Both the position numbers and the translations under genes were made by a program. The notes under the pieces are model-generated. The model had not been told where the DNA came from, did no database searches, and saw only the letters and a program-made list of their open reading frames with translations. A DNA stretch of 61,066 nucleotides from an uncultured Eubacteriales bacterium (lineage in GTDB: Bacteria; Bacillota; Clostridia; Christensenellales; Aristaeellaceae), in the NCBI GenBank assembly GCA_902789795.1, contig CADAPM010000011.1:1-61066 (forward strand). The letters are read 5' to 3'. This document shows, piece by piece, positions 12,526 to 27,903 of the stretch (its first letter is position 1; every line of letters begins with the position of its first letter).

Positions 12526-12660
12526 AATTCGGAGTTCGGAATTCGGAATGCGGAATTAAATGATAAAAAGCGCTGGCTTCGCCGGCGCTTTTTGATGCTG
12601 CCCTCCGGGCATCCTCAAAGCATTATCTAATTCCGCATTCCGAATTCCGCATTCCTAATT
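12526..12660. repeat. Heptad-armed inverted-repeat element B
   Basis: The left arm is five 7-bp units (AATTCGG, AGTTCGG, AATTCGG, AATGCGG, AATTAAA; 12526-12560). The right arm read on the minus strand is AATTAGG, AATGCGG, AATTCGG, AATGCGG, AATTAGA (12626-12660). Between them lie two hairpins: a 13-bp stem at 12565-12593 and a shorter one at about 12599-12611 (TGCCC/GGGCA). It belongs to a family of five such elements in this window. The right arm supplies the last codon and stop of the ACT-domain gene. Confidence 0.85.
12565..12593. terminator. Hairpin inside element B, likely terminator
   Basis: AAAAAGCGCTGGC pairs with GCCGGCGCTTTTT across a 3-base loop. A/T tracts on both sides allow it to work in both directions between converging genes. 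Confidence 0.8.
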
Positions 12661-13020
12661 AACCTCGTATCCCTCTTTCTCCAGCGCTTCCAAGGCCCGG
12701 TCCAGGTTTTCCTTCTTGACCAGGATGTAGTCGGTGTTAAAGGTCGAAACGGCGAAGATGCCGATATTCCGGGCGGCGAGGATGGCGGAGATCCGGGCCA
12801 GGATGCCCACCAGGGAGAAGTCCAGCACGCCCTCGATGCGGAAGGCCCGCCAGCCGTCGCTGCGGGCGAGGGTGCGGGCCGGCGCGGCCTCCGTCTCGCA
12901 GACCAGGGAGAGCTCTTCGTCGGTCTTTCCGATAAAGCAGAGACCGGCCTTCAGGTCGATATCCGCGGCGTCCGCCACCTGGCAGATGGTCAGTTCAGCG
13001 TCCAGCACTTTCAGCTTCAT
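12655..13020 (-). CDS. ACT domain-containing protein
   Basis: A 121-residue protein of two ACT-like halves. The C-terminal half has the pattern VGILARISAILAARNIGIFAVSTF then TDYILVKKENLDRALEAL, as in the aspartokinase/CASTOR-type amino-acid-binding ACT fold. It is probably a small ligand-sensing or amino-acid-binding regulator; the ligand is unknown. The start at 13020 has GGAGGAAC upstream. The final Asn codon and the TAG stop are made by the right arm of repeat element B, so the present C-terminus was shaped by the element. Confidence 0.82.
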   Translation of the reverse strand: MKLKVLDAELTICQVADAADIDLKAGLCFIGKTDEELSLVCETEAAPARTLARSDGWRAFRIEGVLDFSLVGILARISAILAARNIGIFAVSTFNTDYILVKKENLDRALEALEKEGYEVN

Positions 13021-13104
13021 GGCGTTCCTCCGGGCGGTCGTTTTATCTATTCTACCACAGCCGGGAGCGTCCGGCAATCTTCAATCACATACTGTTCCGC
13101 TTGG

Positions 13105-13133
13105 TTGAAGGATTTGAAAATCGGGAGTATAAT
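13105..13133 (+). promoter_or_regulatory. Promoter of Tat redox protein gene
   Basis: TTGAAG (13105-13110), 17 bases, TATAAT (13128-13133). A small hairpin (CCTTTCGCC / GGCGGAAAGG) follows in the leader. Confidence 0.8.
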
Positions 13134-13185
13134 AATCAAAGACGGTCCTTTCGCCCTGAGGCGGAAAGGGAAAGGAGGAAATCAT

Positions 13186-14118
13186 ATGTCTAACAAAGAA
13201 CTGGATCGCCGTTCATTCCTGAAGGGCCTGGGTGCCGGCGCTGCGAGCTTCGCGGTGGCCAGCATGCTGCCCGCTGTGCCTGCTCTGGCGGACGATCCTG
13301 CGATCCCTGAGCATCCCTGGACCTGGCATCCCATCGACAAGCAGAAGGCGCTGGAGTACACCTACAAGCGCTGGTACCAGGTGGGCGGCTGCGGCGGCGG
13401 TGCCGTCGCGGGCATCATGGAGCTGCTGGCGGAGGAGTACGGCTATCCCTATAACATGATCCCGGCCAAGACCATGTCCCTGGCCGCGGGCGGCTACGGC
13501 TGCCAGACCCTGTGCGGCGCGCTGGCGGGCGCCTGCATGATGATCGGCTTCTTCTGCGAGCCTGCGGTGGCCGGCCAGCTGCGCAACCAGCTGTTCGACT
13601 GGTACCGCAAGGAGCCCTTCCCCACCTATCAGCCTGAATACAAGGCCATCACCACCGTGGCGGAGGACATCACCTGCAACGCTTCCGTCAACAAGTTCAT
13701 GAAGGCCAACAACCTGCAGATGGGCGACGACGCCCGCAAGGCCCGCTGCGCGGCGCTGACCGGCGAGGTCGTGTGCAAGACCATCGAGCTCTTGAACATC
13801 CAGTACGGCTATGAAGAGGCCGCTCCCGTGGTCGAGGAAGCCGCTCCCGAACTGGCCGCCAACGAGTACATCGGCACCAGCTCCACCAGCCGCGGCGAGC
13901 TGAAGGTCAAGGTGACCATGGACGGCGACAAGATCGCGAAGATCGAAGTGCTGAGCAGCAGCGAGACCCCCGGCATCTGCGACCCCGCGATGAACACCAT
14001 CCCCGACGCCATCGTCAAGGCCCAGTCTGCCTCTGTGGACGCCGTGTCCGGCGCGACCGAGACCTCCAAGGCCATCATGGCGGCTGTGGAAGACGCCCTG
14101 AGCCAGATCAAGAAATAA
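13186..14118 (+). CDS. Tat-exported C_GCAxxG_C_C redox protein with FMN-binding domain
   Basis: A 310-residue exported protein. It has a twin-arginine signal (LDRRSFLKGLG, then a hydrophobic stretch ending PALA). A Cys-rich domain (about 60-200) with GGCGGG, GYGCQTLCGALAGA and later single cysteines matches the C_GCAxxG_C_C family of putative redox-active, metal-binding proteins. After a Glu/Pro/Ala linker (EEAAPVVEEAAPEL) comes an FMN-binding domain with VDAVSGATETS, the site where flavin transferase ApbE attaches FMN to a Thr/Ser. It probably carries electrons outside the membrane; the partner is unknown. The RBS AAAGGAGG is strong, and a promoter and terminator frame it as a single-gene unit. 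Confidence 0.85.
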   Translation: MSNKELDRRSFLKGLGAGAASFAVASMLPAVPALADDPAIPEHPWTWHPIDKQKALEYTYKRWYQVGGCGGGAVAGIMELLAEEYGYPYNMIPAKTMSLAAGGYGCQTLCGALAGACMMIGFFCEPAVAGQLRNQLFDWYRKEPFPTYQPEYKAITTVAEDITCNASVNKFMKANNLQMGDDARKARCAALTGEVVCKTIELLNIQYGYEEAAPVVEEAAPELAANEYIGTSSTSRGELKVKVTMDGDKIAKIEVLSSSETPGICDPAMNTIPDAIVKAQSASVDAVSGATETSKAIMAAVEDALSQIKK

Positions 14119-14135
14119 TAACCCCATCAATCCCG

Positions 14136-14163
14136 GAAGCCGCCCGTTGGGCGGCTTCTTTCA
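14136..14163 (+). terminator. Terminator of Tat redox gene
   Basis: GAAGCCGCCC and GGGCGGCTTC with a 3-base loop are followed by a T-rich run. Confidence 0.88.
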
Positions 14164-14242
14164 ATGCCGGGAGACAAACTGTAACCCCAGGGGTTTTGAA
14201 GAGGGACGTGTTCCCCTGTCGAAGCTGAGCGAAAGCCTTATC

Positions 14243-14272
14243 TTGACATTTGTTTCACCGGGGAAGTATACT
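14243..14272 (+). promoter_or_regulatory. Promoter of altronate pathway genes
   Basis: TTGACA (14243-14248), 18 bases, TATACT (14267-14272), 50 bases before the tagaturonate reductase start. Confidence 0.75.
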
Positions 14273-14322
14273 GTGGGGAGGAATATAACACTTCCTGTGA
14301 AAGCAGAAGGAGGGCGGTCACT

Positions 14323-15813
14323 ATGGCTCAACTGAATTATGAGGTACTGAAGGCTTCCGGCTATAAGGGATACATCCTTGAAAAGGCGCCGGAGAAGGTG
14401 ATGCAGTTCGGCGAAGGCAATTTCCTGCGCGCCTTTGTGGACGATTTCATCGACATCGCCAACGAAAAGTCCGGCTATAACGGCAAGGTGGTGCTGGTGC
14501 AGCCCATCGCACCGGGCCTGGCGGACCTGATCAACGCGCAGGAGGGCCTGTACACCCTGTACCTGCGCGGCAGCGAAAAGGGCGTCAAGGTGGATGACAA
14601 GCGCGTCATCTCCGCCTGCAGCCGCTGCCTGAACCCCTACGGCGAGTGGGACAAGGTGCTGGACTTTGCCAAGAGCGACGACCTGGAGATCATCGTCTCC
14701 AACACCACCGAGGCGGGCATCGTGCACGACACGGAGAGCGCCTTCGGCCAGAACCCGCCGATCTCTTTCCCGGCGAAACTCACCCGCGTACTGTACGAGC
14801 GCTTCACCGCGGGCAAGAAGGGCATCATCATGCTGTCCTGCGAGCTCATCGACAACAACGGCAAGGAGCTGCTCAAGTGCGTCAACCAGTACATCGACGA
14901 CTGGAAGCTCTCGGACGAGTTCCGCGCCTGGGTCAACAACGAGAACATCTTCTGCTCCACCCTGGTGGACCGCATCGTGCCCGGCCGCATCCGCGACCCG
15001 CAGGAGGTCGCCCGCCTGAACGAGCAGAACGGCTATGAGGACCCGCTGACCGACGTGGGCGAGGTCTTCGGCATCTGGGTCATCGAGGGCCCGGAGGGGC
15101 TGGAGGACCGCCTGCCCTTCAAGGCCGCGGGCGTGCCCGTGATCGTGGTGCCCGACGTGACCCCCTACAAGAAGCGGAAGGTGCGCATCCTGAACGGTGC
15201 GCACACCGGCTTCGTGCTCGGCGCGTACCTGGCGGGCTTCGACATCGTGCGCGACTGCATGCATGACGACACCGTGCGCGGGTTCATGAACAAGATGCTC
15301 AACGAGGAGGTCATTCCCACCCTGCCGCTGGACAAGAAGGACCTGGACGACTTCGCCGCGGCGGTGCAGGACCGCTTCAACAACCCCTTCGTGAACCACG
15401 AGCTCATGAGCATCTCCCTGAACTCCACCTCCAAGTGGCGCGCCCGCAACATGCCCACCTTCCTGGACTATGTGGAGAAAAACGGCCAGCTGCCCAAGTG
15501 CCTGACCGCGAGCCTGGCGGCGTACATCGCCTTCTATTCCAACGACATCCAGGAGCTCAACGACAAGGGCCTGGTCTGCCGCCGCCCGAAGGGCAACGAC
15601 TACGTGGTCTCCGACGACCGCTGGGTGCTGGAATTCTACGCCGCCCGCAAGGACGCCGCCCCTGAAGCTCTGGTGCACGATGTGCTGACCAACGAGCAGA
15701 TGTGGGGCCAGGACCTGACCCAGGTCCCCGGCCTCGAGCCTGAGATCGTCCGCATCCTCAAGCTCATCCGCGAAAAGGGAGCGCTGGAAGCGTATAAAGA
15801 GGCTATTGCGTAA
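14323..15813 (+). CDS. uxaB: Tagaturonate reductase (altronate oxidoreductase)
   Basis: A 496-residue member of the mannitol dehydrogenase family. It begins EKVMQFGEGNFLRAFVDDFID, has VSNTTEAGI in the Rossmann part and PDVTPYKKRKVRILNGAHTG, the C-terminal catalytic region with the family's Lys and Asn/His. It reduces tagaturonate to altronate with NADH in galacturonate breakdown. Altronate dehydratase and KDPG aldolase genes follow in the same direction. Glucuronate isomerase (UxaC) and KDG kinase are not in the window. The RBS GGAGG is good. A repeat element lies in the gap to the next gene. Confidence 0.93.
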   Translation: MAQLNYEVLKASGYKGYILEKAPEKVMQFGEGNFLRAFVDDFIDIANEKSGYNGKVVLVQPIAPGLADLINAQEGLYTLYLRGSEKGVKVDDKRVISACSRCLNPYGEWDKVLDFAKSDDLEIIVSNTTEAGIVHDTESAFGQNPPISFPAKLTRVLYERFTAGKKGIIMLSCELIDNNGKELLKCVNQYIDDWKLSDEFRAWVNNENIFCSTLVDRIVPGRIRDPQEVARLNEQNGYEDPLTDVGEVFGIWVIEGPEGLEDRLPFKAAGVPVIVVPDVTPYKKRKVRILNGAHTGFVLGAYLAGFDIVRDCMHDDTVRGFMNKMLNEEVIPTLPLDKKDLDDFAAAVQDRFNNPFVNHELMSISLNSTSKWRARNMPTFLDYVEKNGQLPKCLTASLAAYIAFYSNDIQELNDKGLVCRRPKGNDYVVSDDRWVLEFYAARKDAAPEALVHDVLTNEQMWGQDLTQVPGLEPEIVRILKLIREKGALEAYKEAIA

Positions 15814-15832
15814 AATCGATTACGTTTTCATA

Positions 15833-15989
15833 AGTGTGAAGAGTGAAGTGTGAAGAGTGGAGTGAAGGAAAAAACTCTTCACCTTCGGTTCAGAGTTTTC
15901 AGGTTTTTGTTAGATCGTGCAAATAGAAGGAAACTGCGCTTGCGCAGTTTCTTCCACCACTTCACTCTCCACTCTTCACACTCCACACT
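15833..15989. repeat. Heptad-armed inverted-repeat element C
   Basis: The left arm is AGTGTGA, AGAGTGA, AGTGTGA, AGAGTGG, AGTGAAG (15833-15867). The right arm on the minus strand is AGTGTGG, AGTGTGA, AGAGTGG, AGAGTGA, AGTGGTG (15955-15989). Inside are two hairpins: AAAACTCT/AGAGTTTT (15871-15899) and a perfect 10-bp stem GAAACTGCGC/GCGCAGTTTC (15930-15951). It sits between two co-directional catabolic genes and ends 7 bases before the RBS of altronate dehydratase. Confidence 0.88.
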
Positions 15990-16006
15990 TGATTTGGAGG
16001 TTTCTC

Positions 16007-17491
16007 TTGAACAGACTATTAAAGATCACTCCCCGCGACATGGTCGCGGTGGCGCTGGAGCCGCTGAAGGCGGGGGAGAACGTGGCTTATGGCGGCGGGG
16101 AGATCGCCCTGACCGAAGACCTGCCCATGGGGCATAAAGTGGCCCTGCGGGACATCAAAGAGGGCGAGCCGGTCATCAAGTACGGCTATCCCATCGGGCG
16201 GGCGCTGGCGGATATTCCTGCCGGCGCGCATGTGCACACCCACAACCTGAAGACCCTGCTTTCCGGCGAGCTGGAATACACCTGGAACCCCATCGAGGTG
16301 CCAGAGAAGCACCTGCCGCCGCGCACCTTCATGGGCTATCCGCGGGCGGACCGCCGGCCCGGCATCCGCAACGAGCTGTGGATCATCCCCACTGTCGGCT
16401 GCGTGAACGACGTGGCCAAGACGCTGGCGCAGATGGCGCAGGACCTGGTGGGCGGGAGCATCGAAGGCGTGTACGCCTTCACCCACCCCTACGGCTGCTC
16501 CCAGCTGGCGCTGGACCAGGACAACACGCGCAAGGCCCTGGCGGACTTTGCCGTGCATCCCAACGCGGGCGGCGTGCTGCTCCTGGGCCTGGGCTGCGAG
16601 AACAGCGGCATCGCCCAGATCACGCCCTACATGGGGGACTATGACGAGAGCCGCGTGCGCATGCTGGTGTGCCAGAGCGTGGAGGACGAGCTGGCCGCAG
16701 GCATGGAGCTGATCCAGGAGCTGGCGGCCAAGATGCGCGGGGACAAGCGCGTGCCCTGCCCGGCGGACCAGCTGGTGGTCGGCCTCAAGTGCGGCGGCTC
16801 GGACGGCCTGTCCGGCATCACCGCGAACCCCACCATCGGCGTGTTCTCGGACCTGCTGACGGCCATGGGCGGCAGCACCATTCTGACCGAAGTGCCCGAG
16901 ATGTTCGGCGCGGAGACCATCCTCATGTCCCGCTGCGGCACGGAGGAGCTCTTCCAGAAGACGGTGCACCTGATCAACGACTTCAAGGGCTATTTCGAGA
17001 GCTATCACATGCCCGTGTACGAGAACCCGTCTCCCGGCAACAAGGCGGGCGGCATCACCACCCTGGAGGACAAGGCCCTGGGCTGCACCCAGAAGTCCGG
17101 TTCCTCCGCGGTCAAGGGCGTCCTCGGCTATGCCGAGCGCGTCACCGCCCCCGGATTGAACCTGCTGAGCGCGCCGGGCAACGACCTGGTCGCGTCCACG
17201 GCCCTTGCCGCCAGCGGCGCGCAGCTGGTGCTCTTCTCCACCGGCCGCGGCACGCCCTTCGGCAGCCCCGTGCCCACCATCAAGATCGCGTCCAACACGC
17301 CCCTGGCCACGAAAAAGCACAACTGGATCGACTTCAACGCCGGCCGCCTACTCTCCGGCATGACTCTTCCCCAGCTGGGCGAGGAGCTCATGACCCTCGT
17401 CCTCGAGATCGCCTCCGGCGAAAAGCTCGCCCGCAACGAGGAGAATGGGTTTAGGGAGATTGCGATATTTAAGCAAGGAGTAACATTGTAA
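16007..17491 (+). CDS. uxaA: Altronate dehydratase
   Basis: A 494-residue enzyme. It has an N-terminal SAF-like domain (about 1-90), then the UxaA/GarD catalytic domain with RNELWIIPTVGCVND, FTHPYGCSQL, GLGCENSGIAQ and LKCGGSDGLSGITANP. It dehydrates D-altronate to 2-keto-3-deoxygluconate. I choose the TTG at 16007 because GGAGG ends 6 bases upstream and the encoded N-terminus matches the family. The longer frame from 15917 runs through the repeat element and is not credible. The stop codon overlaps the first base of element D. Confidence 0.92.
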   Translation: MNRLLKITPRDMVAVALEPLKAGENVAYGGGEIALTEDLPMGHKVALRDIKEGEPVIKYGYPIGRALADIPAGAHVHTHNLKTLLSGELEYTWNPIEVPEKHLPPRTFMGYPRADRRPGIRNELWIIPTVGCVNDVAKTLAQMAQDLVGGSIEGVYAFTHPYGCSQLALDQDNTRKALADFAVHPNAGGVLLLGLGCENSGIAQITPYMGDYDESRVRMLVCQSVEDELAAGMELIQELAAKMRGDKRVPCPADQLVVGLKCGGSDGLSGITANPTIGVFSDLLTAMGGSTILTEVPEMFGAETILMSRCGTEELFQKTVHLINDFKGYFESYHMPVYENPSPGNKAGGITTLEDKALGCTQKSGSSAVKGVLGYAERVTAPGLNLLSAPGNDLVASTALAASGAQLVLFSTGRGTPFGSPVPTIKIASNTPLATKKHNWIDFNAGRLLSGMTLPQLGEELMTLVLEIASGEKLARNEENGFREIAIFKQGVTL

Positions 17492-18052
17492 GTGATAAGG
17501 GATGAGTGATAAGTGATAAGTTGTGGATGAAATCCTTCGCTTTGCTCAGGATTTCTCTGATTTGTACGGCGTGTTTTCCTGCTTGATCGTTTTAGTGGAG
17601 AAGTTTCATGAGTGGGATCGCATTGATCAAAAGTAAAAGATTTGCCATCCGTATCGTGCGTGTATATGACTATTTATGCAAAATCAAGCATGAATATGTT
17701 ATGTCCAAGCAGCTGCTGAAATGCGGCACATCCATAGGGGCGAATCTTGCGGAAGCTGAATATGCGATCTCACGAAACGACTTCCAATCCAAGGTCTACA
17801 TCGCACTGAAAGAAGCTTCAGAAACTCTGTACTGGCTGGAGCTGTTGAAGAACACGGGATACCTGACGGCGGAACAGTACGCAAGCTTGCGGACAGATGC
17901 GGATGATATCCACCGAATACTGATCTCATCCGCAAAGACACTCAAGTCATCGTCGACCGATGCTTGAAAAAGCGAGCTTAAATCAAAGAAATCTCGAGTA
18001 AAACGAGAGATTTCCACCTGAACTTATCACTTATCTCTTATCACTTATCACT
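17491..18052. mobile_element. Heptad-armed element D carrying a four-helix-bundle gene
   Basis: The left arm is AGTGATA, AGGGATG, AGTGATA, AGTGATA, AGTTGTG (17491-17525). The right arm on the minus strand is AGTGATA, AGTGATA, AGAGATA, AGTGATA, AGTTCAG (18018-18052). Inside each arm is a hairpin: GAAATCC/GGATTTC (17529-17555) and CTCG/CGAG with flanking AAAT/ATTT (17988-18014). The 119-codon gene at 17608-17967 lies between the hairpins. The arms match the 161-bp element at 27743-27903, which lacks a gene. The inverted ends around one gene suggest a mobile unit; no transposase is present, so mobility is inference. Confidence 0.7.
17608..17967 (+). CDS. Four-helix-bundle protein (23S rRNA intervening-sequence protein family)
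   Basis: A 119-residue all-helical protein with the family's hallmarks: RFAIRIVRVYDYLCK in helix 1, QLLKCGTSIGANLAEAEYAISRNDF, KVYIALKEASETLYWLELL and a final helix DADDIHRILISSAKTL. Such proteins (S23/IVP) were first known from intervening sequences flanked by inverted repeats in 23S rRNA of Leptospira and Coxiella. The same fold is found in Avd of diversity-generating retroelements. The molecular function is unclear; basic members bind nucleic acid. Here it sits in an intergenic, inverted-repeat element, not in an rRNA. GTGGAG upstream gives a fair RBS. No reverse transcriptase is nearby. Confidence 0.9.
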   Translation: MSGIALIKSKRFAIRIVRVYDYLCKIKHEYVMSKQLLKCGTSIGANLAEAEYAISRNDFQSKVYIALKEASETLYWLELLKNTGYLTAEQYASLRTDADDIHRILISSAKTLKSSSTDA

Positions 18053-18078
18053 GAAAAAAGTTCCGAAAGGAGCTTAAC

Positions 18079-19035
18079 ATGGATATCTTGGAAGCTCTCT
18101 CCCTCTCCGGTCTTGTCCCCGTCATCGCGATCAATGACACCGAGGACGCAGTGCCCTTGTGCAAAGCCCTGTCGTCTGGCGGTTTGCCTGTGGCGGAGAT
18201 CACCTTCCGGACTGCGGCGGCGGAGGAAGCGATCCGCCGGGTGCACGAAGAGCTGCCGGAGGTCGCTCTCTGCGCGGGCACGGTGCTGAGCACCGATCAG
18301 GCGGAGCGCGCGGTCAGGGCCGGCGCGGCGGCCATCGTCTCCCCGGGCTTCAACCCCGAGGTGGTGCGCTGGTGCGTCGACCGCGGCATCCCCGTGTGCC
18401 CCGGCACGTCGAACGCCACGGATATCGAGATGGCGCTGTCCTTCGGGCTCAAGGCCGTGAAGGTGTTCCCGGCGGAAGCCATCGGCGGCATCCGGCTGAT
18501 CAGGGCCCTGGCAGCGCCCTATGCGGACATGCGGTTCATGCCTACCGGCGGCATCAACGAGCAGAACATGCTGGACTACCTGAGCTTTGAGAAGGTGCTG
18601 TGCTGCGGCGGCAGCTGGATGGTGCCCGGCGACGCCGTGAAGGCCAAGGACTGGCAGCGGATCACGGACCTCACCCGCAGCGCGGTCAGCAGGATGCTCG
18701 GCTTCGAGCTTCGGCACATCGGCATCAATTCCGGCAGCCCCGAGCAGGCCCGAAAGGACGCGGAGCAGCTGGCCCGGCTGCTGGGCTGGCCCGTGAAGCC
18801 CGGCGAGACGAACTTCTTCGCCGGTGACGCCTTCGAGTGCATGAAGGAGATAGGCCGCGGCAAGCATGGCCACATCGCCGTCGCCACCAACGATATCCGC
18901 CGCGCCCGGTGGCACCTGGAGCAGCGCGGCTTCGTCTTCGACGAGAGCAGCATCAAGGAAGCGAACGGCAAAATGACGGTCATCTACCTGAAGGACGACA
19001 TCTGCGGCTTCGCCATCCACCTGCAGCAAAAGTAA
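18079..19035 (+). CDS. KDPG / KHG aldolase with C-terminal VOC-like domain
   Basis: A 318-residue protein. Residues 1-210 are a class I 2-keto-3-deoxy-6-phosphogluconate/4-hydroxy-2-oxoglutarate aldolase: Glu40 and Arg44 in VAEITFRT, GTVLSTDQAERAVRAGA, PGTSNATDIEMAL, the Schiff-base Lys128 in KVFPAE, and the phosphate loop MPTGGI. It splits KDPG into pyruvate and glyceraldehyde 3-phosphate, completing the altronate route. Residues about 215-318 (RHIGINSG..., GHIAVATNDIRRARWHLEQRGF, CGFAIHLQ) look like one vicinal-oxygen-chelate/glyoxalase unit fused to the aldolase; its role is unknown. Ordinary Eda is about 210 residues. The RBS AAAGGAG is strong. Confidence 0.88.
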   Translation: MDILEALSLSGLVPVIAINDTEDAVPLCKALSSGGLPVAEITFRTAAAEEAIRRVHEELPEVALCAGTVLSTDQAERAVRAGAAAIVSPGFNPEVVRWCVDRGIPVCPGTSNATDIEMALSFGLKAVKVFPAEAIGGIRLIRALAAPYADMRFMPTGGINEQNMLDYLSFEKVLCCGGSWMVPGDAVKAKDWQRITDLTRSAVSRMLGFELRHIGINSGSPEQARKDAEQLARLLGWPVKPGETNFFAGDAFECMKEIGRGKHGHIAVATNDIRRARWHLEQRGFVFDESSIKEANGKMTVIYLKDDICGFAIHLQQK

Positions 19036-19041
19036 GGTATT

Positions 19042-19080
19042 ACGCCTGCGGATCATCGGTATGCACCCGCGGGCGTTTTT
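19042..19080 (+). terminator. Terminator after KDPG aldolase
   Basis: ACGCCTGCGG pairs with CCGCGGGCGT (one wobble), followed by TTTT. Confidence 0.75.
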
Positions 19081-19094
19081 GTGAGGACGAAAGC

Positions 19095-19631
19095 ATGACG
19101 AGTTACGACGGCCCGGATCTCTTTGCCCACCTGTTCCCGGGCTTCTTTGAGGACACGGGCATCCGGGCGCTCCCGGCGGGAGAGACTTTCGTGGAAATGA
19201 TCCTGCCGCTGCGCGAAGGCGCGCTTCGCCCGGCACCGCAGCCTGACGGGATCGCCTATGGGATCTACGGCGGCGATCCTGCGCCCCTGCTGGAAGCGGT
19301 GCGCCAGGTCGAACCGGATTGGGTACAATACTTTGGAAACGGAGACCGGGTGCTCTGCGGGTTTGATGGAACCAGGCCGGTCAGCTTTTGCCTGCTCACC
19401 GATTTCGGACGCTACCACGGCCTGCGCGTCGGCGGCCCGGGCTGCGTCGGCACGCTGCCGGGCTATCGGGGCCGCGGCATCGGCCTTGGCATGGTGGCGG
19501 AGGCGACGGCGCTGCTGGGGGCGGAGGATTTCGACCTGTCCTACATCCACTATACGCATCTCGAGCGCTGGTACGCGAAGCTCGGTTACCGCACCATCCT
19601 GCGCTGGGACCGGCAGGGGATCGTCGGCTGA
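19095..19631 (+). CDS. GNAT family acetyltransferase
   Basis: A 178-residue protein whose C-terminal half has the acetyl-CoA site GTLPGYRGRGIGLGMVAEATAL and the ending YIHYTHLERWYAKLGYRTILR, the usual GNAT layout. The N-terminal part (FVEMILPLREGALRPAP) is not family-specific. Substrate unknown. The ATG at 19095 is the first after the terminator; the frame is open further upstream but overlaps the aldolase gene. It is followed after 48 bp by the phosphatase gene, perhaps co-transcribed. The RBS (GAGGACGAAAGC) is weak. Confidence 0.8.
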   Translation: MTSYDGPDLFAHLFPGFFEDTGIRALPAGETFVEMILPLREGALRPAPQPDGIAYGIYGGDPAPLLEAVRQVEPDWVQYFGNGDRVLCGFDGTRPVSFCLLTDFGRYHGLRVGGPGCVGTLPGYRGRGIGLGMVAEATALLGAEDFDLSYIHYTHLERWYAKLGYRTILRWDRQGIVG

Positions 19632-19679
19632 ACAGCCGCATTAAAACAGCCCGCACAGCGGGCCCGAAAAGGAGACGGC

Positions 19680-20387: not shown

Positions 20388-20410
20388 TCGAGTTCTGTTT
20401 CGACCATCAC

Positions 20411-20695: not shown

Positions 20696-21220
20696 GTGGG
20701 AATGATTCAGGCGCCGAATCAAACCCCGGCAGACCGACTTGATCGAATGGTGCAGCAATATGAAAAGGACTTGCTTCGAATCTGCTGCATATATCTGAGG
20801 AATCGTACTGCTGCGGAGGATGTGGTGCAGGAAACATTTTTGAAGGCATTCAGAAATATTGATTCTTTTCGCGGTAAAAGCAACGAAAAGACTTGGCTGA
20901 TCCGAATAGCCATCAACTGCTGCCGGGATTACAGACGAAGCGCCTGGCATCGGTATATTGATTCTCGTGTTTCCATCGACCAGCTGCCCATCCTTTCCTC
21001 AGCGCCGCCAAGTGATGATCATATTGCGCTGACCATGGCGATCATGAAGCTGAAGCCTAAATATATGGAAGCCGTTCTGCTGTATTTTTATGAGGGCTAT
21101 CCCATCAAGGACATTGCAAATATGTTAAACCTGACGGAGGCTGCTGTTTCCAGCAGGATCCATAAGGCAAAGCAAAAACTAAAGGCTGAACTGGAAGGAG
21201 GCGAAGGCAATGAAAAGTGA
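20696..21220 (+). CDS. ECF-type RNA polymerase sigma factor
   Basis: A 174-residue sigma-70 family protein with region 2 (YEKDLLRICCIYLRNRTAAEDVVQETFLKAF, then TWLIRIAINCCRDYRR) and region 4 (LKPKYMEAVLLYFYEGYPIKDIANMLNLTEAAVSSRIHKAKQKL). Regions 1 and 3 are absent, as in ECF sigma factors. It directs RNA polymerase to a small set of stress or envelope promoters. GTG at 20696 is chosen because AGGAGG lies 9 bases upstream; the ATG at 20702 is possible. The gene overlaps the next one by 11 bp, so the pair is translationally coupled. Confidence 0.92.
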   Translation: MGMIQAPNQTPADRLDRMVQQYEKDLLRICCIYLRNRTAAEDVVQETFLKAFRNIDSFRGKSNEKTWLIRIAINCCRDYRRSAWHRYIDSRVSIDQLPILSSAPPSDDHIALTMAIMKLKPKYMEAVLLYFYEGYPIKDIANMLNLTEAAVSSRIHKAKQKLKAELEGGEGNEK

Positions 21221-22385
21221 TCAGGAAATCATGCAGCGCATTCGTGCCGCGATTAACGACTGTACTAAAGGAATAGATGCCGCGCCTTCGCTGCAATACC
21301 AGATTGCGCGAAAAGCGAAAGGAGAAGAACGCGTGGTCAAGAAAATATCTGCTTCTGCGATCCTCGTTATTACGCTTGTTATTGTTTCCATGACCGCTGC
21401 TCTTGCAGCCGGGCTTGGGTTATTTGGCGAACTGGCACAGAACCCGCGCGGGGACAGCAGACTTTCAGAAGTAGAAAAAGTAGCCGATCCTATCGGACTT
21501 GAATGGACGACAGAAGATGGTATCACCATCCGTATCGAGCAGGCATATTACGAAGGGAACCGTGTGTTTATTTCATATCGAAAGAGTGGGGATTGGACTT
21601 CAACCGTCCTCCATGATGGCGCTCCGGAAGGTGTGAGCACATGGGATTGGGTTGAAGAAAACATGATCGTTGCACAAACGATGATCAGCGATGAACCCGA
21701 ACGTCAGAAGGCATTCCTGCAGCTGGACGGTCATGATCGGCGATGGATTGAATGTACAGATAAAGGGTTGCTTGATGGGCTGAGTCTGGCAGACGGCACC
21801 TATCTGGATATTATTGGCGGGGATAATATCGTCCAGGAAGACGGCAGCGTCATCGGATGGAAAGAATGCGAAATTCCCGAAGACTGCCTGCAGGAAACGC
21901 TGACTTTCCAGGCAATGCTTTATCGCAATCACAGCATCATGTACCAGGACGGAACCACGTACCGGCAGTCGTCCGAGAAAGGTGAGAATACAATCTTTGA
22001 GTTTACTTTGACACAGAACAACGATCTGACACGGCTGAAAGGCAGCGGAAATGGCCCGAATTATACAGCTGTAGCTGAATTGATATCTGGGCATATTGAT
22101 TTGCGTGGAAGAATCACGGTCACCTGCCCGGATGCATGGATTCAAGTCTATAAGACATGGGAAAATCCAGATCAAATTGACATGATCGAAGATTGGTACC
22201 TATACTTCAATGGCGAGATGATATCAGAAAACGGGTTGCAAGGTGTTGGAGTGAACGGAGAAAACCAACTTATGTTTGAGGTAATGTTTGACGCCATGGA
22301 TGATTTGACTGGTATTACCCTGGTACCTGTTTACCAGAACCATCAACCGCACATGGAGGAAGCGATCACACTCAACATAGAGTAA
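21210..22385 (+). CDS. Membrane-anchored anti-sigma factor-like protein
   Basis: A 391-residue protein. Residues 1-45 are cytoplasmic and hydrophilic, one transmembrane segment follows (about 46-68, ISASAILVITLVIVSMTAALAAG), and about 320 residues lie outside. The layout matches anti-sigma factors with a DUF4179-like external domain that are coupled to ECF sigma genes in Firmicutes. The start overlaps the sigma gene, which supports that it holds the sigma factor at the membrane until an outside signal is sensed. The external domain has no recognisable enzyme motif. Codon use is less GC-biased than in neighbouring genes, suggesting the pair was acquired or is under different constraint. Confidence 0.75.
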   Translation: MKSDQEIMQRIRAAINDCTKGIDAAPSLQYQIARKAKGEERVVKKISASAILVITLVIVSMTAALAAGLGLFGELAQNPRGDSRLSEVEKVADPIGLEWTTEDGITIRIEQAYYEGNRVFISYRKSGDWTSTVLHDGAPEGVSTWDWVEENMIVAQTMISDEPERQKAFLQLDGHDRRWIECTDKGLLDGLSLADGTYLDIIGGDNIVQEDGSVIGWKECEIPEDCLQETLTFQAMLYRNHSIMYQDGTTYRQSSEKGENTIFEFTLTQNNDLTRLKGSGNGPNYTAVAELISGHIDLRGRITVTCPDAWIQVYKTWENPDQIDMIEDWYLYFNGEMISENGLQGVGVNGENQLMFEVMFDAMDDLTGITLVPVYQNHQPHMEEAITLNIE

Positions 22386-22398
22386 AAGACGTACACAC

Positions 22399-22425
22399 GC
22401 CCACGAGGTCCATCACCCCGTGGGC
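22399..22425. terminator. Hairpin between converging genes
   Basis: GCCCACG pairs with CGTGGGC around a 13-base loop. The T-run is poor, so the terminator role is uncertain. Confidence 0.5.
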
Positions 22426-22477
22426 ATTCGTGTTATTCGGTTTCTTTTAACATGGCCTTATAGGCCCAACAGCATCC

Positions 22478-24973
22478 TCAGATGAACCGCCCGGTCACGC
22501 TGCCGGGCGCGTTTTTGATGTCCTCGGGGGTGCCGGCGGCCACGATCTGGCCGCCCTGTTCGCCGCCGCCGGGGCCCATATCGATGATGTAGTCCGCGCT
22601 GCGGATCACGTCCAGGTCGTGCTCGATCACGATCACGGTGGCGCCGTTGTCGATCAGGGTCTGGAACACGGTCAGCAGGGTCTGCACGTCCAGCGGGTGC
22701 AGGCCGATAGTGGGCTCGTCGAACACGAAGACCGCGTCGGTCTGCAGCCGGCCCATCTCGCTGGCCAGCTTCAGGCGCTGGGCCTCGCCGCCGGAAAGGC
22801 TGGGGGTCTCCTCGCCCAGGGTCAGGTAGCCCAGGCCCAGGCTCTTGAGCACCTCGAGGCGGCCATAGACCGTCTTCATGTCCTTGCAGAAGTGAAGGGC
22901 GGTGTTCACGTCCATGTCCATGACCTCGGGCAGGGACTTCGCGTCGCCCGCCTTGTTGACGTGCCGGATCTGGTAGGCCTCCTTCGCGTAGCGGGAGCCG
23001 CGGCACTCGGGGCAGGGGATGTCCACATCCGGCAGGAACTGCACGTCCAGGCTCACCGCGCCGGTGCCGTCGCAGACGGGGCAGCGCAGGTCGCCGGTGT
23101 TGTAGGAGAAGGCGGAGGCCTTCCGCCCGCGGGCCTTGGCGTCAGGCGTCCGGGCGTAGATCTTGCGCAGCTCGTCGTGCACGTTGGCGTAGGTGGCTAC
23201 GGTGGAGCGGATGTTGATGCCGATGGGGGTCGCGTCGATCAGCTTCACGTGGGCGATGCCCTCGGCGGTGATCGCCTTTATGTGCGGGGGCAGCGGTTGG
23301 CCGGACGTCAGCGCAGCCAGGGCCGGGACCAGGCTTTCCAGGATCAGGGTGGTCTTCCCGGAGCCGGAAACGCCGGTGACCACCGTCAGGCGGCCCTTGG
23401 GCACGTCCACGGACAGGGGCTTCACCGTGTGCAGCGCGCCGGTCTCCAGGTGGATCGCGCCCTGGGCGAACAGCTCTGCCTCCGGAACGCGCTTGCGGGT
23501 GATGTCAGCCGTGCCCGCCAGGAAAGGCCCGATGCGGGAGGCGGGGTTGTCGGCGATCTCGGGGATCGTGCCCTCCGCCACCACACGCCCGCCGGCCGCG
23601 CCGGCCTCCGGGCCCATCTCGATCAGCCAGTCCGTTTCCTTCAGGATCTGGGTGTCGTGGTCTACCAGCAAGACGGAGTTGCCGTCCGCCACCAGGTCGT
23701 GCATGACGCCGGTCAGGCCCACGATATTCGCCGGGTGCAGGCCGATGGAGGGCTCGTCCAGCACGTACAGCACGCCGGTGGTGCGGTTGCGCACCGCCCG
23801 GGCCAATTGCATGCGCTGGCGCTCGCCGGTGGAGAGGGTGGACGCGGCGCGGTCCAGGGACAGGTAGGACAGGCCCAGGTCCATGAGCCGCTTCGCCACC
23901 AGATCAAAGGAGGCGCAGATGCTTTCCGCCATGGGGCGCATCTCTTGGGGCAGGGAGGCGGGCACGCCGCGCACCCATTCGCAGAGGTCGGAAAGCGCCA
24001 TCTGGCATACCTCGGCCAGGGAAAGCCCGCGCAGCCTCGGTGCCTGGGCGGCGTCGGACAGGCGGGTGCCGCCGCAGTCGGGGCAGGTCTCTTCCTTCAG
24101 GAATTTCTCCACTCGCGCCATGCCCTTTTCGTCGGTGACCTTGCTCAGGGCGTTCAGGACCGTCTGGGTGGCGCTGAAATAGGTGAAGTCCATCTCCGCC
24201 GCGGTCATGTGGTCCTGGTTCTTGGGGCGGTAGAAGATGTGCTTCTTGACCATCGGGCCGCGGAGCACGATCTCCTTCTCCTCGTCGGTCAGGTCATGGT
24301 AGGGCACGTCGGTGCGCACGCCCATGGCGCGGCACACGTCGGTCATCAGCGACCACATCAGGCTGTTCCAGGGCGCGACCGCGCCGCCGTCGATGGTCAG
24401 GGACTCGTCCGGGACCAGGGTGCGCTCGTCCACGGTGCGCACGATGCCCGTGCCGCCGCAGCGCTTGCACGCGCCCTGGCTGTTGAAGGCCAGCTCCTCG
24501 GCGCCGGGGCCGTAAAAGGAGACGCCGCACTCGGGGCAGACGGTCTCCCGCCCGGCGGCCACGTCCATGGAGGGCGGGCAGTAGTGCCCGTTGGGGCAGC
24601 GGTGGCTGGCCAGGCGCGAGAACATGAGGCGCAGGCCGTTCAGGAGCTCCGTGCCCGTGCCGAAGGTGGAGCGGATGCCCGGCACGCCGGGCCGCTGGTG
24701 CAGCGCCAGGGAGGCGGGCACGTACAGCACGTCGTCCACATCCGCCCGCGCCGCCTGGGTCATCCTGCGGCGGGTGTAGGTGGACAGGGACTCCAGGTAC
24801 CGCCGGGAGCCCTCGGCGTACAGCACGCCCAGGGCCAGGGAGGATTTGCCCGACCCCGACACGCCCGCGATCCCCACGATGCGGTTCAGCGGCACATCCA
24901 CATCGATATTTTTCAAATTATGCACCCTCGCCCCGCGGATGAGGATGGACTTAGGATTGTCGACAGATTTCAT
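22478..24973 (-). CDS. UvrA-like ABC ATPase lacking most of the UvrB-binding domain
   Basis: An 831-residue tandem ATPase of the UvrA family, with Walker A GVSGSGKSS near residue 37 and a second copy GVSGSGKTT, two signature motifs (STGERQRMQLARA, SLSGGEAQRLKLA), and DEPSIGLHP and DEPTIGLHP. CxxC zinc modules are present (CPECGVSFYG, CKRCGGTG; CPVCDGTG, CPECRGSR). Canonical UvrA is about 940 residues. The shortfall lies between the first ATP-binding part and the first zinc module, where UvrB binds. This is the UvrA2/DrrC type, linked to DNA-damage tolerance or drug resistance. The start at 24973 has GGAG 8 bases upstream. Element E lies just before it. Confidence 0.85.
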   Translation of the reverse strand: MKSVDNPKSILIRGARVHNLKNIDVDVPLNRIVGIAGVSGSGKSSLALGVLYAEGSRRYLESLSTYTRRRMTQAARADVDDVLYVPASLALHQRPGVPGIRSTFGTGTELLNGLRLMFSRLASHRCPNGHYCPPSMDVAAGRETVCPECGVSFYGPGAEELAFNSQGACKRCGGTGIVRTVDERTLVPDESLTIDGGAVAPWNSLMWSLMTDVCRAMGVRTDVPYHDLTDEEKEIVLRGPMVKKHIFYRPKNQDHMTAAEMDFTYFSATQTVLNALSKVTDEKGMARVEKFLKEETCPDCGGTRLSDAAQAPRLRGLSLAEVCQMALSDLCEWVRGVPASLPQEMRPMAESICASFDLVAKRLMDLGLSYLSLDRAASTLSTGERQRMQLARAVRNRTTGVLYVLDEPSIGLHPANIVGLTGVMHDLVADGNSVLLVDHDTQILKETDWLIEMGPEAGAAGGRVVAEGTIPEIADNPASRIGPFLAGTADITRKRVPEAELFAQGAIHLETGALHTVKPLSVDVPKGRLTVVTGVSGSGKTTLILESLVPALAALTSGQPLPPHIKAITAEGIAHVKLIDATPIGINIRSTVATYANVHDELRKIYARTPDAKARGRKASAFSYNTGDLRCPVCDGTGAVSLDVQFLPDVDIPCPECRGSRYAKEAYQIRHVNKAGDAKSLPEVMDMDVNTALHFCKDMKTVYGRLEVLKSLGLGYLTLGEETPSLSGGEAQRLKLASEMGRLQTDAVFVFDEPTIGLHPLDVQTLLTVFQTLIDNGATVIVIEHDLDVIRSADYIIDMGPGGGEQGGQIVAAGTPEDIKNAPGSVTGRFI

Positions 24974-25008
24974 TTGTATACTCCGGTTATGAATTGCAAG
25001 CGTAAAAA

Positions 25009-25141
25009 AGTAGGAAGGAAGAAGGAGAAAGTAGGAAGTAGAAAGTAGGAAGTAGGAAGTAAAGAATGTTTTGCAGTGGAATTTGTAACGCCGAGTGCGG
25101 GAGTAGAATTACTTCCTACTTCCTAACTCCTACTTCCTACT
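25009..25141. repeat. Heptad-armed inverted-repeat element E
   Basis: The left arm has eight 7-bp units, the last five being AGTAGGA, AGTAGAA, AGTAGGA, AGTAGGA, AGTAAAG (25030-25064). Three more degenerate units lie outside them (25009-25029). The right arm on the minus strand is AGTAGGA, AGTAGGA, GTTAGGA, AGTAGGA, AGTAATT (25107-25141). The 42-bp middle has no clear twin hairpins, unlike elements B, C, D and D2. It separates the Nudix stop codon (8 bp away) from the UvrA-like gene. Confidence 0.8.
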
Positions 25142-25149
25142 TAACTGTT

Positions 25150-25554
25150 TTATACCTCTCCACCCTCTTTCAGCCCTTTCTTTAACAGCTCAATCACCGA
25201 AAGGTCCGCCGGCAGCCACTCTACGCTGTCCAGCTCGTCGGCGGTGAGCCAGCGGGCGGATTCGTGCTCGAGGAGGGTCAGGCGGCCGGAGAGGATCTCG
25301 CACAGGTAGCAGCCCATGGACAGGTGGAAGTCCGGATAGTCGTATTCCACCTGGGCGAGCTTTTTTCCCACGGCGATCTCGGTGTCCAGCTCCTCGCGGA
25401 TCTCGCGGGCGAGGGCCGCTTCCGGGGTCTCGCCGGGCTCGATCTTCCCGCCGGGGAACTCCCACCCGTCCTTGAAAGCGCCGTAGCCCCGCTGGGTGGC
25501 AAAGATGCGTCCGTCCCTTTCGATGACGGCGGCGACGACCTGTATCGTTTTCAT
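25150..25554 (-). CDS. MutT-type Nudix hydrolase
   Basis: A 134-residue protein with the Nudix box GGKIEPGETPEAALAREIREEL (metal-binding Glu pair). It starts VVAAVIERDGRIFATQRGYG, as in MutT/8-oxo-dGTP diphosphatases, and ends LPADLSVIELLKKG. The conserved Gly near the end of the box is Asp here. It probably cleans oxidised nucleotides or the CTP-type substrates of the same group. It is the third gene of a minus-strand run MATE, TauE/SafE, Nudix with gaps of 12 and 16 bp. Confidence 0.9.
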   Translation of the reverse strand: MKTIQVVAAVIERDGRIFATQRGYGAFKDGWEFPGGKIEPGETPEAALAREIREELDTEIAVGKKLAQVEYDYPDFHLSMGCYLCEILSGRLTLLEHESARWLTADELDSVEWLPADLSVIELLKKGLKEGGEV

Positions 25555-25570
25555 CGGCTCTATCCCTTTA

Positions 25571-26293
25571 TCACAGATTGTTCAGGATCAGCGTGAGCCC
25601 GCTGCCTACGAGCACCAGGATGATGCACATGCGGACGCTGCGCTCGCTCAGCTTCCCGGCGCAGCGGATGCCCAGGAACAGCCCGAGGAGCATGGAGGGC
25701 ATCAGGATGAGCCCCTGCAGGGCCAGAGGCCCGGTGAGCAGGCCCGTCACGGCATAGATGATGACGCGCAGGACGTCGGTGGAGGCGTACACGGCGGAGA
25801 GGTTCGCTTTCAGCTCCTTGCTGTCCCGGGTCGTCTTGGTCAGGGCAGCGGCCATCAGCGCGCCGACGCCGAACATGCCGCTCAGGACGCCCGACAGGAC
25901 GATCGTGATCCAGTGCATGACCTTGGCGCGGCCGGTAGGCGCGGCGGGGGCCTTGTCCTTGCTGCGCAGCATGTCCAGGCTCAGGGCGAGCACCACGAAG
26001 CCGAAAATCAGCTTGACAGCGCGGCCGTCCATATTCCTGAGCAGCAGCGCGCCTGGGACCAGGAAGAGCCCGGATATCAGGGCCGCGGGCAGCCAGATCT
26101 TCTTGTCCAGCCACTGACGGTGCTTCCAGGTCATGGTCACGTTGGCGGGCAGCGTGAGCATGGAGTCCACCGGGGTGATGACCGCGTTATCCTTGAAAAA
26201 GGCCATAATGCCCGCGTGGATCAGGGAGTTCCCGAAGCCGGCGATGCCCTTGACGAAGTAGCCGGCGAATACTGCGATCTGCCAGATGATCAT
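25571..26293 (-). CDS. TauE/SafE family membrane transporter
   Basis: A 240-residue membrane protein with about seven hydrophobic segments and the family start AGYFVKGIAGFGNSLIHAGIMA (GxxGFGxg motif), repeated weakly as LSGMFGVGALMAAALTK in the second half. TauE/SafE proteins export sulfite, sulfoacetate or related organic anions; the substrate is not predictable here. It is slightly shorter than usual. The start at 26293 has GGAGG only 4 bases upstream. It lies in the middle of the MATE/TauE/Nudix run. Confidence 0.85.
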   Translation of the reverse strand: MIIWQIAVFAGYFVKGIAGFGNSLIHAGIMAFFKDNAVITPVDSMLTLPANVTMTWKHRQWLDKKIWLPAALISGLFLVPGALLLRNMDGRAVKLIFGFVVLALSLDMLRSKDKAPAAPTGRAKVMHWITIVLSGVLSGMFGVGALMAAALTKTTRDSKELKANLSAVYASTDVLRVIIYAVTGLLTGPLALQGLILMPSMLLGLFLGIRCAGKLSERSVRMCIILVLVGSGLTLILNNL

Positions 26294-26305
26294 GCTGCCT
26301 CCAAA

Positions 26306-27703
26306 TCAATCTCTCGCGCCGACGATATTGCGCACCCACACGCCCTTGCGCACCAGGTGCAGGCCAAAGAAGCACTTGACCAGCTCCGCGCAGTTCACGC
26401 ACACCAGCATCCACACGATGTACATGTCGGTATACCGGCTCAGCACGAAGGCGACGGGGATGCACAGCGCCCACAGGCAAACCGAGTCGAACAGGAAGGT
26501 GATCCAGGTCTTGCCGCCGGAGCGCAGGGTGAAATAGCAGGCGTTGTTGAAGGCGTTCAGGGGCATGAAGAGCGCGTTCACGATCATCAGCCGCGTCGCC
26601 AGGGCGCGGATGCTCTCCTCCGTCTGGTAGACCCGCGGGAAGAAGGGCGCGGCGCACACCAGCAGGATGCCGGTGCCCACGCTCATCAGGATCGACATCA
26701 CGATCAGCTTGCGCGCGTGATCCCGCGCCTCGTCCAGGCGGTTCGCGCCCAGGCGCTGGCCCAGGATGATGGCGATGGCCGTGCCCATGGAGATGAACAC
26801 CACGCTGAACAGGTTGGAGATGGTGGAGGAGATGTTCTGCGCCGTGACCACGCTGAGCCCGCGCATGGAGTAGCACTGGTTCAGGGTGGCGATGCCGCTG
26901 GACCAGAGCGCCTCGTTGATGAGCAGCGGGAAGCCCTTGCGGAAGAACTCCACCGCTCGGTCCAGGGGAATCCTGAGCGTGCGGTACAGCCCGACGACCC
27001 AGGGGTTGCGCTCCTTGTGCGCGTGGGTCCAGGTCACGACGATGAGCAGCTCCACATAGCGGCTCAGCACCGTGGCGATGGCCGCGCCGTCCACGCCCAG
27101 CTGGGGGAAGCCCCAGTGGCCGTAGATCAGCAGCCAGTTGCCGATCAGGTTCACCAGCACCGCGATGATGCCGGCGCGCATGGGCACCAGCGTCTCCCCG
27201 CATTCGCGCAGGCTGCTGGAGTACACCTGGGCCAGCATGAAGGCCGGCAGGCCCGCCAGCATGATGCGCAGGTAGGATTCACCATATTTGAGGGTGCTCA
27301 TAAGGTCGCCGCCCTCGGCGGATTCGTTCAGGTACAGGCTGATCAGCGGCCCGCCCGCCAGCAGGAACACCGCCGCGGCGCCCGCGCACAGCAGCATCCC
27401 GATCCACAGCTTGTAGCGGAAGGTCTGCCGGATGCCCTCCTGATCGCCCTGGCCGTAATACTGCGCGGTAAAGATGCCCGCGCCGGCGAGCCCGCCGAAA
27501 ATGCACAGGTTGAACACGAAGATCAGCTGGTTGACGATGGCCACGCCGGACATGGGCTCCGTGCCCACCTGCCCGACCATGATATTGTCCAGCAGGCTGA
27601 CGAAGTTGGTGATGCCGTTCTGCACCATGACCGGCACCGCGATCCTGAGCACCATGCGCAGGAACGACCGGTTGCCGAGATACTTTTGCTTAAGGTCAGT
27701 CAT
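26306..27703 (-). CDS. MATE family efflux transporter
   Basis: A 465-residue protein with twelve hydrophobic segments in two similar halves (LRIAVPVMVQNGITNFVSLLDNIMVGQVG in the first, FFRKGFPLLINEALWSSGIATLNQ in the second), the mark of Na+/H+-driven multidrug and toxin exporters. The length is normal. AAAGGAG precedes the ATG. It is first in the run with TauE/SafE and Nudix, and repeat element D2 lies 39 bp upstream, between it and the M16 peptidase gene. No own promoter is obvious outside D2, so it may depend on read-through. Confidence 0.92.
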   Translation of the reverse strand: MTDLKQKYLGNRSFLRMVLRIAVPVMVQNGITNFVSLLDNIMVGQVGTEPMSGVAIVNQLIFVFNLCIFGGLAGAGIFTAQYYGQGDQEGIRQTFRYKLWIGMLLCAGAAAVFLLAGGPLISLYLNESAEGGDLMSTLKYGESYLRIMLAGLPAFMLAQVYSSSLRECGETLVPMRAGIIAVLVNLIGNWLLIYGHWGFPQLGVDGAAIATVLSRYVELLIVVTWTHAHKERNPWVVGLYRTLRIPLDRAVEFFRKGFPLLINEALWSSGIATLNQCYSMRGLSVVTAQNISSTISNLFSVVFISMGTAIAIILGQRLGANRLDEARDHARKLIVMSILMSVGTGILLVCAAPFFPRVYQTEESIRALATRLMIVNALFMPLNAFNNACYFTLRSGGKTWITFLFDSVCLWALCIPVAFVLSRYTDMYIVWMLVCVNCAELVKCFFGLHLVRKGVWVRNIVGARD

Positions 27704-27742
27704 GCGGACTCCTTTAAGTCAGGTAGGAGTGAGGTAACGAAT

Positions 27743-27903
27743 AGTGATAAGTGATAAGAGATAAGTGATAAGTGGTGGTAGAAATTGCGCAGAGCGCAAT
27801 TTCATCTATTTCGCACGCAGTGCCGCAACAATCGTCCAAACTCCGTAACGCAGTGAAGGAGTTTGTTCCTGAACTTATCACTTATCTCTCATCATTTATC
27901 ACT
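27743..27903. repeat. Heptad-armed inverted-repeat element D2 (gene-less relative of D)
   Basis: The left arm is AGTGATA, AGTGATA, AGAGATA, AGTGATA, AGTGGTG (27743-27777). The right arm on the minus strand is AGTGATA, AATGATG, AGAGATA, AGTGATA, AGTTCAG (27869-27903). Inside are two hairpins: a perfect 10-bp stem GAAATTGCGC/GCGCAATTTC with a 3-base loop (27781-27803) and CAAACTCC/GGAGTTTG (about 27837-27865). The right arm matches that of element D almost base for base, including the AGTTCAG end. Only about 33 bp separate the hairpins, and no ORF is present. Confidence 0.88.

Follow-up and report, generated by a model that had tools for sequence, protein, structure and literature searches.

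Five intergenic elements in a 61,066-nucleotide (nt) stretch of DNA from an uncultured Eubacteriales bacterium (contig CADAPM010000011.1 of assembly GCA_902789795.1; the whole stretch is called the window here) end in inverted arms with a period of seven nucleotides. We found that one of the five, at 17.5 kb, encodes a protein of the S23/IVP family (PF05635; IVP from here on), and that inverted arms of the same period flank IVP genes in many distant bacteria. The elements are probably dispersed, selfish intervening-sequence elements with miniature derivatives, and their period would be set by IVP binding. Our data suggest that a ring protein, probably five-part, dictates the seven-letter spacing while the letters themselves vary.

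The other four window elements carry no IVP gene, and a genome-wide search with PF05635 found no further IVP in the window. Two IVP genes are present in the assembly (2.59 Mb in 64 contigs, 88% complete), that of the window and one on contig C6, and each is enclosed by inverted heptamer arms, of the units AGTGATA and AGGTTGA, respectively. An AlphaFold model of the 119-residue IVP had a mean pLDDT of 95.1. Its best fold matches were 2rld (BT_0352 of B. thetaiotaomicron) and 2gsc (Xcc0516 of Xanthomonas), both listed with five chains (A-E for 2gsc); the Xcc0516 paper reportedly speaks of 'five four-helix bundles' in its title. Weaker Foldseek matches were 8ub7 and 4dwl, the Avd protein of a diversity-generating retroelement (E 0.03-0.04). 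A resemblance of PF05635 to Avd is remarked on in the available part of PMC10053308, and the available part of PMC10910872 lists the 23S rRNA IVP domain among CRISPR-associated candidates. A viral origin was considered and set aside: one scan of viral_contigs with this single protein returned no relative, and arms are absent from both records of phage-borne IVPs.

For the association of arms with the gene, IVP genes were taken as centres and inverted period-7 arrays were sought on both sides. Such arms enclose 48 of 75 IVP loci from the same taxonomic family, a subset of the family matches listed, of which 40 more were placed in a later set. A GTDB scan, represented by the best 80 of 590 candidate loci, gave arms at 61 of 82 IVP open reading frames (ORFs), and by record title the armed loci belong to Clostridia, Bacteroidales, cyanobacteria, Alcanivorax, a Verrucomicrobia, Thermoflexus and Pyrinomonadaceae. 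With thresholds unchanged, the later set of 122 loci gave arms at 82 of 127 ORFs (30/40 from the family, 41/76 from the phylum, 11/11 from plasmids); it was not blind for 12 plasmid loci whose arms had been seen earlier, and without these the count is 71/116. One of those 12, L292, has no intact IVP ORF in the later set. All 12 plasmid IVP loci inspected, from 25 plasmid matches, are armed, and eight are cyanobacterial, from Nostoc, Dolichospermum, Planktothrix, Gloeocapsa and Euhalothece. The original prediction of this family of elements, made from the letters of the window, had cited the heptamer repeats of heterocystous cyanobacteria and had named no described equivalent in Clostridia; the class is not restricted to Clostridia.

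Control searches gave few hits. Periods 5, 6, 8, 9 and 10 combined yielded 1, 1 and 0 matches in the three sets. Random pseudo-ORFs in a sample of the bacterium's own genome were armed in 16 of 1500 cases, none with both arms within 250 bp, and at equal span 2 of 151 pseudo-ORFs in the GTDB loci were armed, compared to 61 of 82 IVPs. The arms lie close to the gene, at median distances of 51 nt upstream and 12 nt downstream of the IVP domain.

Several IVP loci had other surroundings. Around IVP genes of other clades that lack tandem arms (L190, L196, L186, L165, L176, L154 and L172) we observed a second architecture, in which a 6-7 nt motif (ATTTCAY, AATTCAT, GTGAAA or ATATCAC) recurs about five times, with small hairpins between the copies in place of a tandem array; detection of such chains is unspecific, since coding sequence and 7 of 54 shuffled segments also gave chains of at least four copies. 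The plasmid IVP genes L288, L290, L292 and L294 are flanked by annotated helicase or specificity-subunit genes together with methylase or nuclease genes, of the restriction-modification, DISARM or BREX type. IVP genes also cluster within 5 kb, four at G627:C150:4002-8790 and three at G612:C1:31043-35436.

The unit that builds the arms is hypervariable: 105 IVP elements (106 before L203, on the same contig as L119, was dropped) carry 68 consensus heptamers. ARTK is present in 78 of them, and C makes up only 6.6% of the inward strand. A common A(A/G)TNNNN pattern, as originally predicted, is borne out by ART in 79 of the 105, but 52% of shuffled units hold ART too. As a counter of elements, the pattern ARTNNNN was too loose (144 hits, compared to 83 for the control) and was rejected. 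The two arms of one element differ by a distance of 0.12, compared to 0.45 between elements, a contrast that complementarity-based detection favours. Similar IVPs carry similar units (Mantel r = 0.35, with 0 of 5000 permutations as high), which was also seen in the later set (80 of 82 elements; r = 0.23, 0 of 3000).

Arm length shows a peak. Among 294 arms, including 76 from the own-genome sample in which an arm is recounted wherever pairs share it, 132 measure 31-33 nt and 180 measure 28-34 nt. The corresponding counts are 80 and 108 of 164 arms in the later set, and 65 and 89 of 146 arms when a short detection window with a lower cut-off was used. The peak is sharpest in the bacterium's own family (56 of 96 arms at 31-33 nt), and the longest arrays reach 157 nt. 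An arm of 31-33 nt accommodates a short motif five times, once every 7 nt. The proposal of a real family, with conserved architecture and changing sequence, was upheld.

Within the window, a scan for lag-7 runs (at least 17 matches in 21) detected nine runs, every one of them an arm of the five elements, and four inverted pairs; the tenth arm (27873-27903) fell under the run threshold. Other periods from 5 to 13 gave 0-1 runs and no pairs, and period 14, a harmonic, gave six runs and one pair. No period-7 run or pair appeared in 100 order-1 shuffles of the window, and the scan and shuffles together confirm the five elements and their inverted arms at the predicted coordinates (Table 1). The outer 31 nt of paired arms are reverse-complementary at 28, 26, 28, 25 and 29 positions in elements 1-5, so that each element has a terminal inverted repeat stem, as in the intervening sequence (IVS) of 23S rRNA, with 25-29 of 31 positions complementary. 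The earlier count of about five units per arm needs rewording: an arm is four heptamers plus 3 nt, which amounts to five copies of an ART-like trinucleotide at 7-nt spacing. The longer left arm of the 25.0-kb element was recovered, with 7.7 copies by TRF. One hairpin just inside each arm had been described for four of the five elements; this holds on both sides at 15.8, 17.5 and 27.7 kb, while at 12.5 kb two adjacent hairpins fill the core and at 25.0 kb there are none. The arms and core of element 2 were matched elsewhere in the same genome at C3:32875, C4:128868 and C4:241108. Strong RNA folds were found among the elements, with z = -10.5 for element 5 and a second z of -7.4. Rfam returned no match in window positions 12000-28500, and neither a known RNA family nor a location in an rRNA gene is supported for the window elements.

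Table 1. Heptamer-armed elements of the window and the IVP gene, in window positions
Feature	Positions (strand)	Arms	Hairpins	IVP gene or family match
Element 1, AATTCGG-type arms	12526..12660	12526-12556, 12630-12660	12565-12593, 12594-12613	no IVP gene
Element 2, AGTGTGA/AGAGTGA-type arms	15833..15989	15833-15863, 15959-15989	near 15871-15899, 15929-15952	no IVP gene
Element 3, IVP-coding form, AGTGATA arms	17491..18052 (+)	17491-17521, 18022-18052	17529-17555, 17988-18014	
IVP / four helix bundle protein, 119 aa, within element 3	17608..17967 (+)			PF05635 E=9e-26; TIGR02436 E=2e-28
Element 4, AGTAGGA arms	25009..25141	left array 25008-25061 (~7.7 units), right arm 25111-25141	none	no IVP gene
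Element 5, AGTGATA arms	27743..27903	27743-27773, 27873-27903	27781-27803, 27837-27865	no IVP gene

A further repeat, a 19-bp tandem GTGATAACACCTCTTTCGT in 2.2 copies at window positions 60677-60718, has no evident link to the heptamers.

Elsewhere, IVP elements lie inside structured RNAs. Four IVPs were located within 23S (LSU) rRNA and one, L393, within RNase P RNA, and period-7 arms are present at all five; Rfam was run on 20 later loci, 17 of which were already known to be armed, and the frequency of arms at rRNA IVPs is not deducible from this selection. The L393 element (973-1747, minus strand), from a member of the same phylum, has arms that extend a helix of RNase P RNA, which we take to be P12. 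A second locus, L397, whose arms were read from sequence, is a candidate for the same placement in RNase P RNA. Heptamers of the short tandemly repeated repetitive (STRR) type were reportedly described in cyanobacterial RNase P RNA, going by the title of Vioque 1997. The available part of PMC4990558 describes for the Coxiella IVS a 28-bp terminal stem, tandem heptamers upstream of the S23 ORF, and excision by RNase III.

Comparison with relatives points to turnover of both elements and units. The 17.5-kb site lies between what are presumably an altronate dehydratase-like gene and a KDPG-aldolase-like gene. At this site, IVP elements are also present in the relatives G007 (arms AGTGAGG) and G001 (AGTGTGG), while G003 has a remnant and G017 a short gap. 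In a tree of the family IVPs (75 loci, 72 rows after three identical copies were dropped), the window IVP and that of G007 are sisters (support 100/95). They are 71% identical and occupy the same operon site between different heptamers, AGTGATA and AGTGAGG, so both arms seem to have been switched in place. Eight sites were sought in G007, and two (12.5 kb and L108:6831) were omitted with a single flank found; among the six alignable sites, five hold an element, always with a different heptamer, and 27.7 kb is empty. This last site also lacks an element in G003 and G001, as does L108:16082 in both. A pair pattern for AGTGATA gave 87 hits in the own genome and 0 in seven relatives, a lineage-specific expansion; a reversed-pattern control was invalid, since reversing this unit only rotates it. 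On Nostoc plasmids, the same IVP element splits a cytosine methylase gene that is whole in other plasmids, with 328 bp of the target replaced. Whole-unit insertions and deletions separate the Nostoc copies, both arms of the C057 plasmid copy being one heptamer shorter than those of the N6 and ATCC 53789 copies, a concerted contraction, and whole-unit differences are in part also seen between Planktothrix plasmids.

Lineage-specific expansion and empty sites in relatives are also what ordinary miniature inverted-repeat transposable elements (MITEs) would leave, if a conventional transposase moved the elements and IVP were a passenger or regulator in some copies. The window elements share MITE-like traits, being short, with non-coding forms, inverted termini and high copy number. 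We nevertheless consider this explanation unlikely, given the IVP genes found between arms in many distant bacteria. No target-site duplication was established at the six alignable diverged sites or in the Nostoc plasmids, where the insertion replaced sequence instead. Different units with one fixed period would also fit poorly with a single transposase binding site.

The own-genome sample covered 400 kb in 20 stretches, partly picked near pattern hits, so that densities are biased upward. It contained 87 period-7 runs and 33 inverted pairs, some nested or sharing an arm, while other periods from 4 to 13 gave 0-7 runs and no pairs, the harmonic 14 gave 44 runs and 8 pairs, and a Markov shuffle gave none. 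The excess of runs over pairs suggests that solo arms exist. The two outcomes that the original prediction had named as fatal, arms at chance level and no recurrence, did not arise, and recurrence in the genome and its relatives was borne out. Merging the pairs left 29 elements shorter than 650 bp, or 34 with those of the window. The five intergenic elements first described are real, but the number of such elements is far above five, and one of the five carries the IVP gene that had been overlooked. Discrete arm families of the types TGATAAG, TAGGAAG, GTGGAG, TGAGGAG, TTCGGAA and GGTTGAA coexist in this genome. At L094 16593-17488, L095 16408-16746 and L108 11765-11991, arrays belonging to different heptamer families lie within one another or are joined in phase.

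With genes called by a simple rule, the neighbouring genes are co-directional for 23 of the 34 elements, convergent for 8 and divergent for 1, while 1 element is inside an ORF and 1 is at an edge; gaps without elements were 119 co-directional, 41 convergent and 41 divergent. Among the 23 co-directional elements, 17 begin no more than 16 nt past the upstream stop codon. Since the period is seven and many units include stop codons, translation running into the 5' arm would often be halted before long, whatever the frame, and gene ends may on this account be tolerant targets. A similar remark on TAACTGA repeats was made by MacGregor in the available part of PMC4679880.

The same placement would suit arms that are cis-regulatory RNA sites of an IVP regulon, acting to protect 3' ends, in termination or in the control of translation. 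For TAACTGA, a role in translational regulation was proposed by MacGregor (PMC4679880, available part), and the strong folds reported above fit such a role. We regard a regulon as quite unlikely, since the sites are not conserved in sequence (at the six alignable sites in G007, the heptamer differs at five and the element is missing at one) and copies of IVP occur within a methylase gene, 23S rRNA and RNase P RNA as well; proximity to stop codons could reflect tolerance only. Simple paired arrays produced by heptamer slippage, with no binding partner, would account for the whole-unit insertions and deletions in Nostoc and in part Planktothrix and for arrays as long as 157 nt, but would leave the near-exclusive period of seven, the inverted pairing, the peak at 31-33 nt and the tight flanking of IVP genes unexplained, and are highly improbable.

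We return to selfish intervening-sequence elements whose period would be set by IVP, and propose how they may work. The window elements would represent, between genes, the class known so far from the IVS of 23S rRNA. In its coding form, an IVP gene would lie between two inverted arms, and the short forms would be miniatures of this, mostly with hairpin cores. Like its solved relatives, IVP would assemble into a ring of five, and by analogy with TRAP a single-stranded arm would wrap around it, each of the five subunits holding one copy of the motif. The agreement between five motif copies and five subunits points to one copy for each subunit, and both the motif count of the arms and the five chains in 2rld and 2gsc are consistent with a TRAP-like ring. 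With one motif per subunit, the geometry of the protein would hold the period at 7 nt and the copy number at five, leaving the letters free to drift. Whole-unit slippage and copying between the inverted arms would maintain the likeness of each array to its partner. In a transcript, the two arms would form a stem of about 31 bp and so a possible substrate for RNase III; an insertion could then be tolerated within structured RNAs as well as between cistrons. The element itself encodes neither transposase nor reverse transcriptase, and reverse transcription in this host was rejected as a candidate when RVT_1 was not found in its genome (88% complete). Selection for a structure, or a copying mechanism that favours the period, had been suggested originally; no heptamer-writing copying enzyme was found.

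Several results weigh against this proposal. IVP-arm binding, processing and movement of the elements are inferred. IVP ORFs without detectable tandem arms number 27 of 75, 21 of 82 and 45 of 127 in the three sets, the two phage-borne IVPs have none, and for four of the six arm families named in this genome the assembly contains no IVP to match. Arm lengths cluster least in the GTDB set (40 of 122 arms at 31-33 nt, 57 of 122 at 28-34 nt), and some arms measure 25 nt or exceed 40 nt. That no target-site duplication was seen counts here as well as against MITEs. The correlation between IVPs and units could stem from shared descent alone. A residue-base code was strong in training, where R/K52 accompanied C5 in 21 of 25 cases compared to 1 of 53 (78 ARTK elements of the 105; p = 5e-14), and mostly failed on 44 later elements of the 82: R/K52 with C5 was not upheld (4/7 compared to 9/37, p = 0.17), and neither were Q/N/H52 with G5 and I54 with G2. 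The sole association to repeat in the later set was S/T109 with G6 (14/18 compared to 9/26, p = 0.0065). A pair-contrast version of the test had undefined null values and was not used.

A broader version is possible, although we would stop short of calling it probable. IVP would be a pentameric ring of evolvable sequence specificity, binding one motif per subunit at exactly 7-nt spacing. With the five-fold arms it would make up one class of RNA-excisable selfish element found across bacteria. This class would unite the window elements with the IVSs of 23S rRNA and RNase P RNA, with STRRs and with the Xanthomonas GGGAATC and Beggiatoa TAACTGA repeats, and in it protein and arms would keep mutual register as the letters turn over. 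Heptamer repeats have been named several times in bacteria without a settled mechanism, and S23/IVP proteins are annotated in many genomes without a function. The association described here supplies each with a partner, and the number seven would be explained by a testable geometry of five copies and five subunits, on which IVP is predicted to bind its own arm at 7-nt spacing only. If this is right, more than 100 natural protein-heptamer pairs would be at hand from which a recognition code might be read.

Among known systems, the IVS of 23S rRNA is alike in having an IVP gene inside a terminal inverted stem, with period-7 arms in the four 23S loci examined. The window elements differ in that they lie between protein genes, four of five lack the IVP gene, many dispersed copies exist, and several heptamer families share one genome. 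Avd of diversity-generating retroelements has the same fold, by the weak Foldseek matches, whereas the RVT_1 domain of such systems was not found in this genome. REPIN/RAYT systems and other bacterial MITEs are likewise small, palindromic, dispersed elements with hairpins; here, in contrast, the arms are period-7 arrays of variable sequence and the associated protein is no known transposase.

Heptamer repeats offer closer parallels. The STRRs of heterocystous cyanobacteria are heptamer arrays matched in pattern by the window elements and the eight cyanobacterial plasmid loci, and these cyanobacterial repeats and the window arms are probably of one kind; the literature searched gave no link of STRRs to IVP. 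The Xanthomonas GGGAATC repeats are also inverted heptamers, mostly of four units, with 70 and 75 inverted pairs in two genomes and a position near the 5' neighbouring ORF (PMC4692102, available part), and X. campestris encodes the IVP relative Xcc0516 (2gsc). They were treated as G-quadruplex repeats, and the main text of PMC4692102 does not contain 'S23', 'four helix' or 'intervening'. The TAACTGA repeats of Beggiatoaceae resemble the window elements in being intergenic heptamers of strain-specific distribution. They differ in that the genome described has 169 direct sets and a single indirect repeat, and the available main text of PMC4679880 contains neither 'S23' nor 'four helix'. AGTTATC, a rotation of the reverse complement of TAACTGA, flanks the IVPs of two cyanobacterial metagenome-assembled genomes (L231 and L245). 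A literature search with most subscription journals outside it returned, among the matches listed, no paper linking IVP genes with inverted heptamer arms. The pieces, namely the 23S IVS, STRRs, Xanthomonas GGGAATC and TAACTGA, are known separately; what is new is dispersed, heptamer-armed IVS elements with miniatures, together with the geometry proposed for them.

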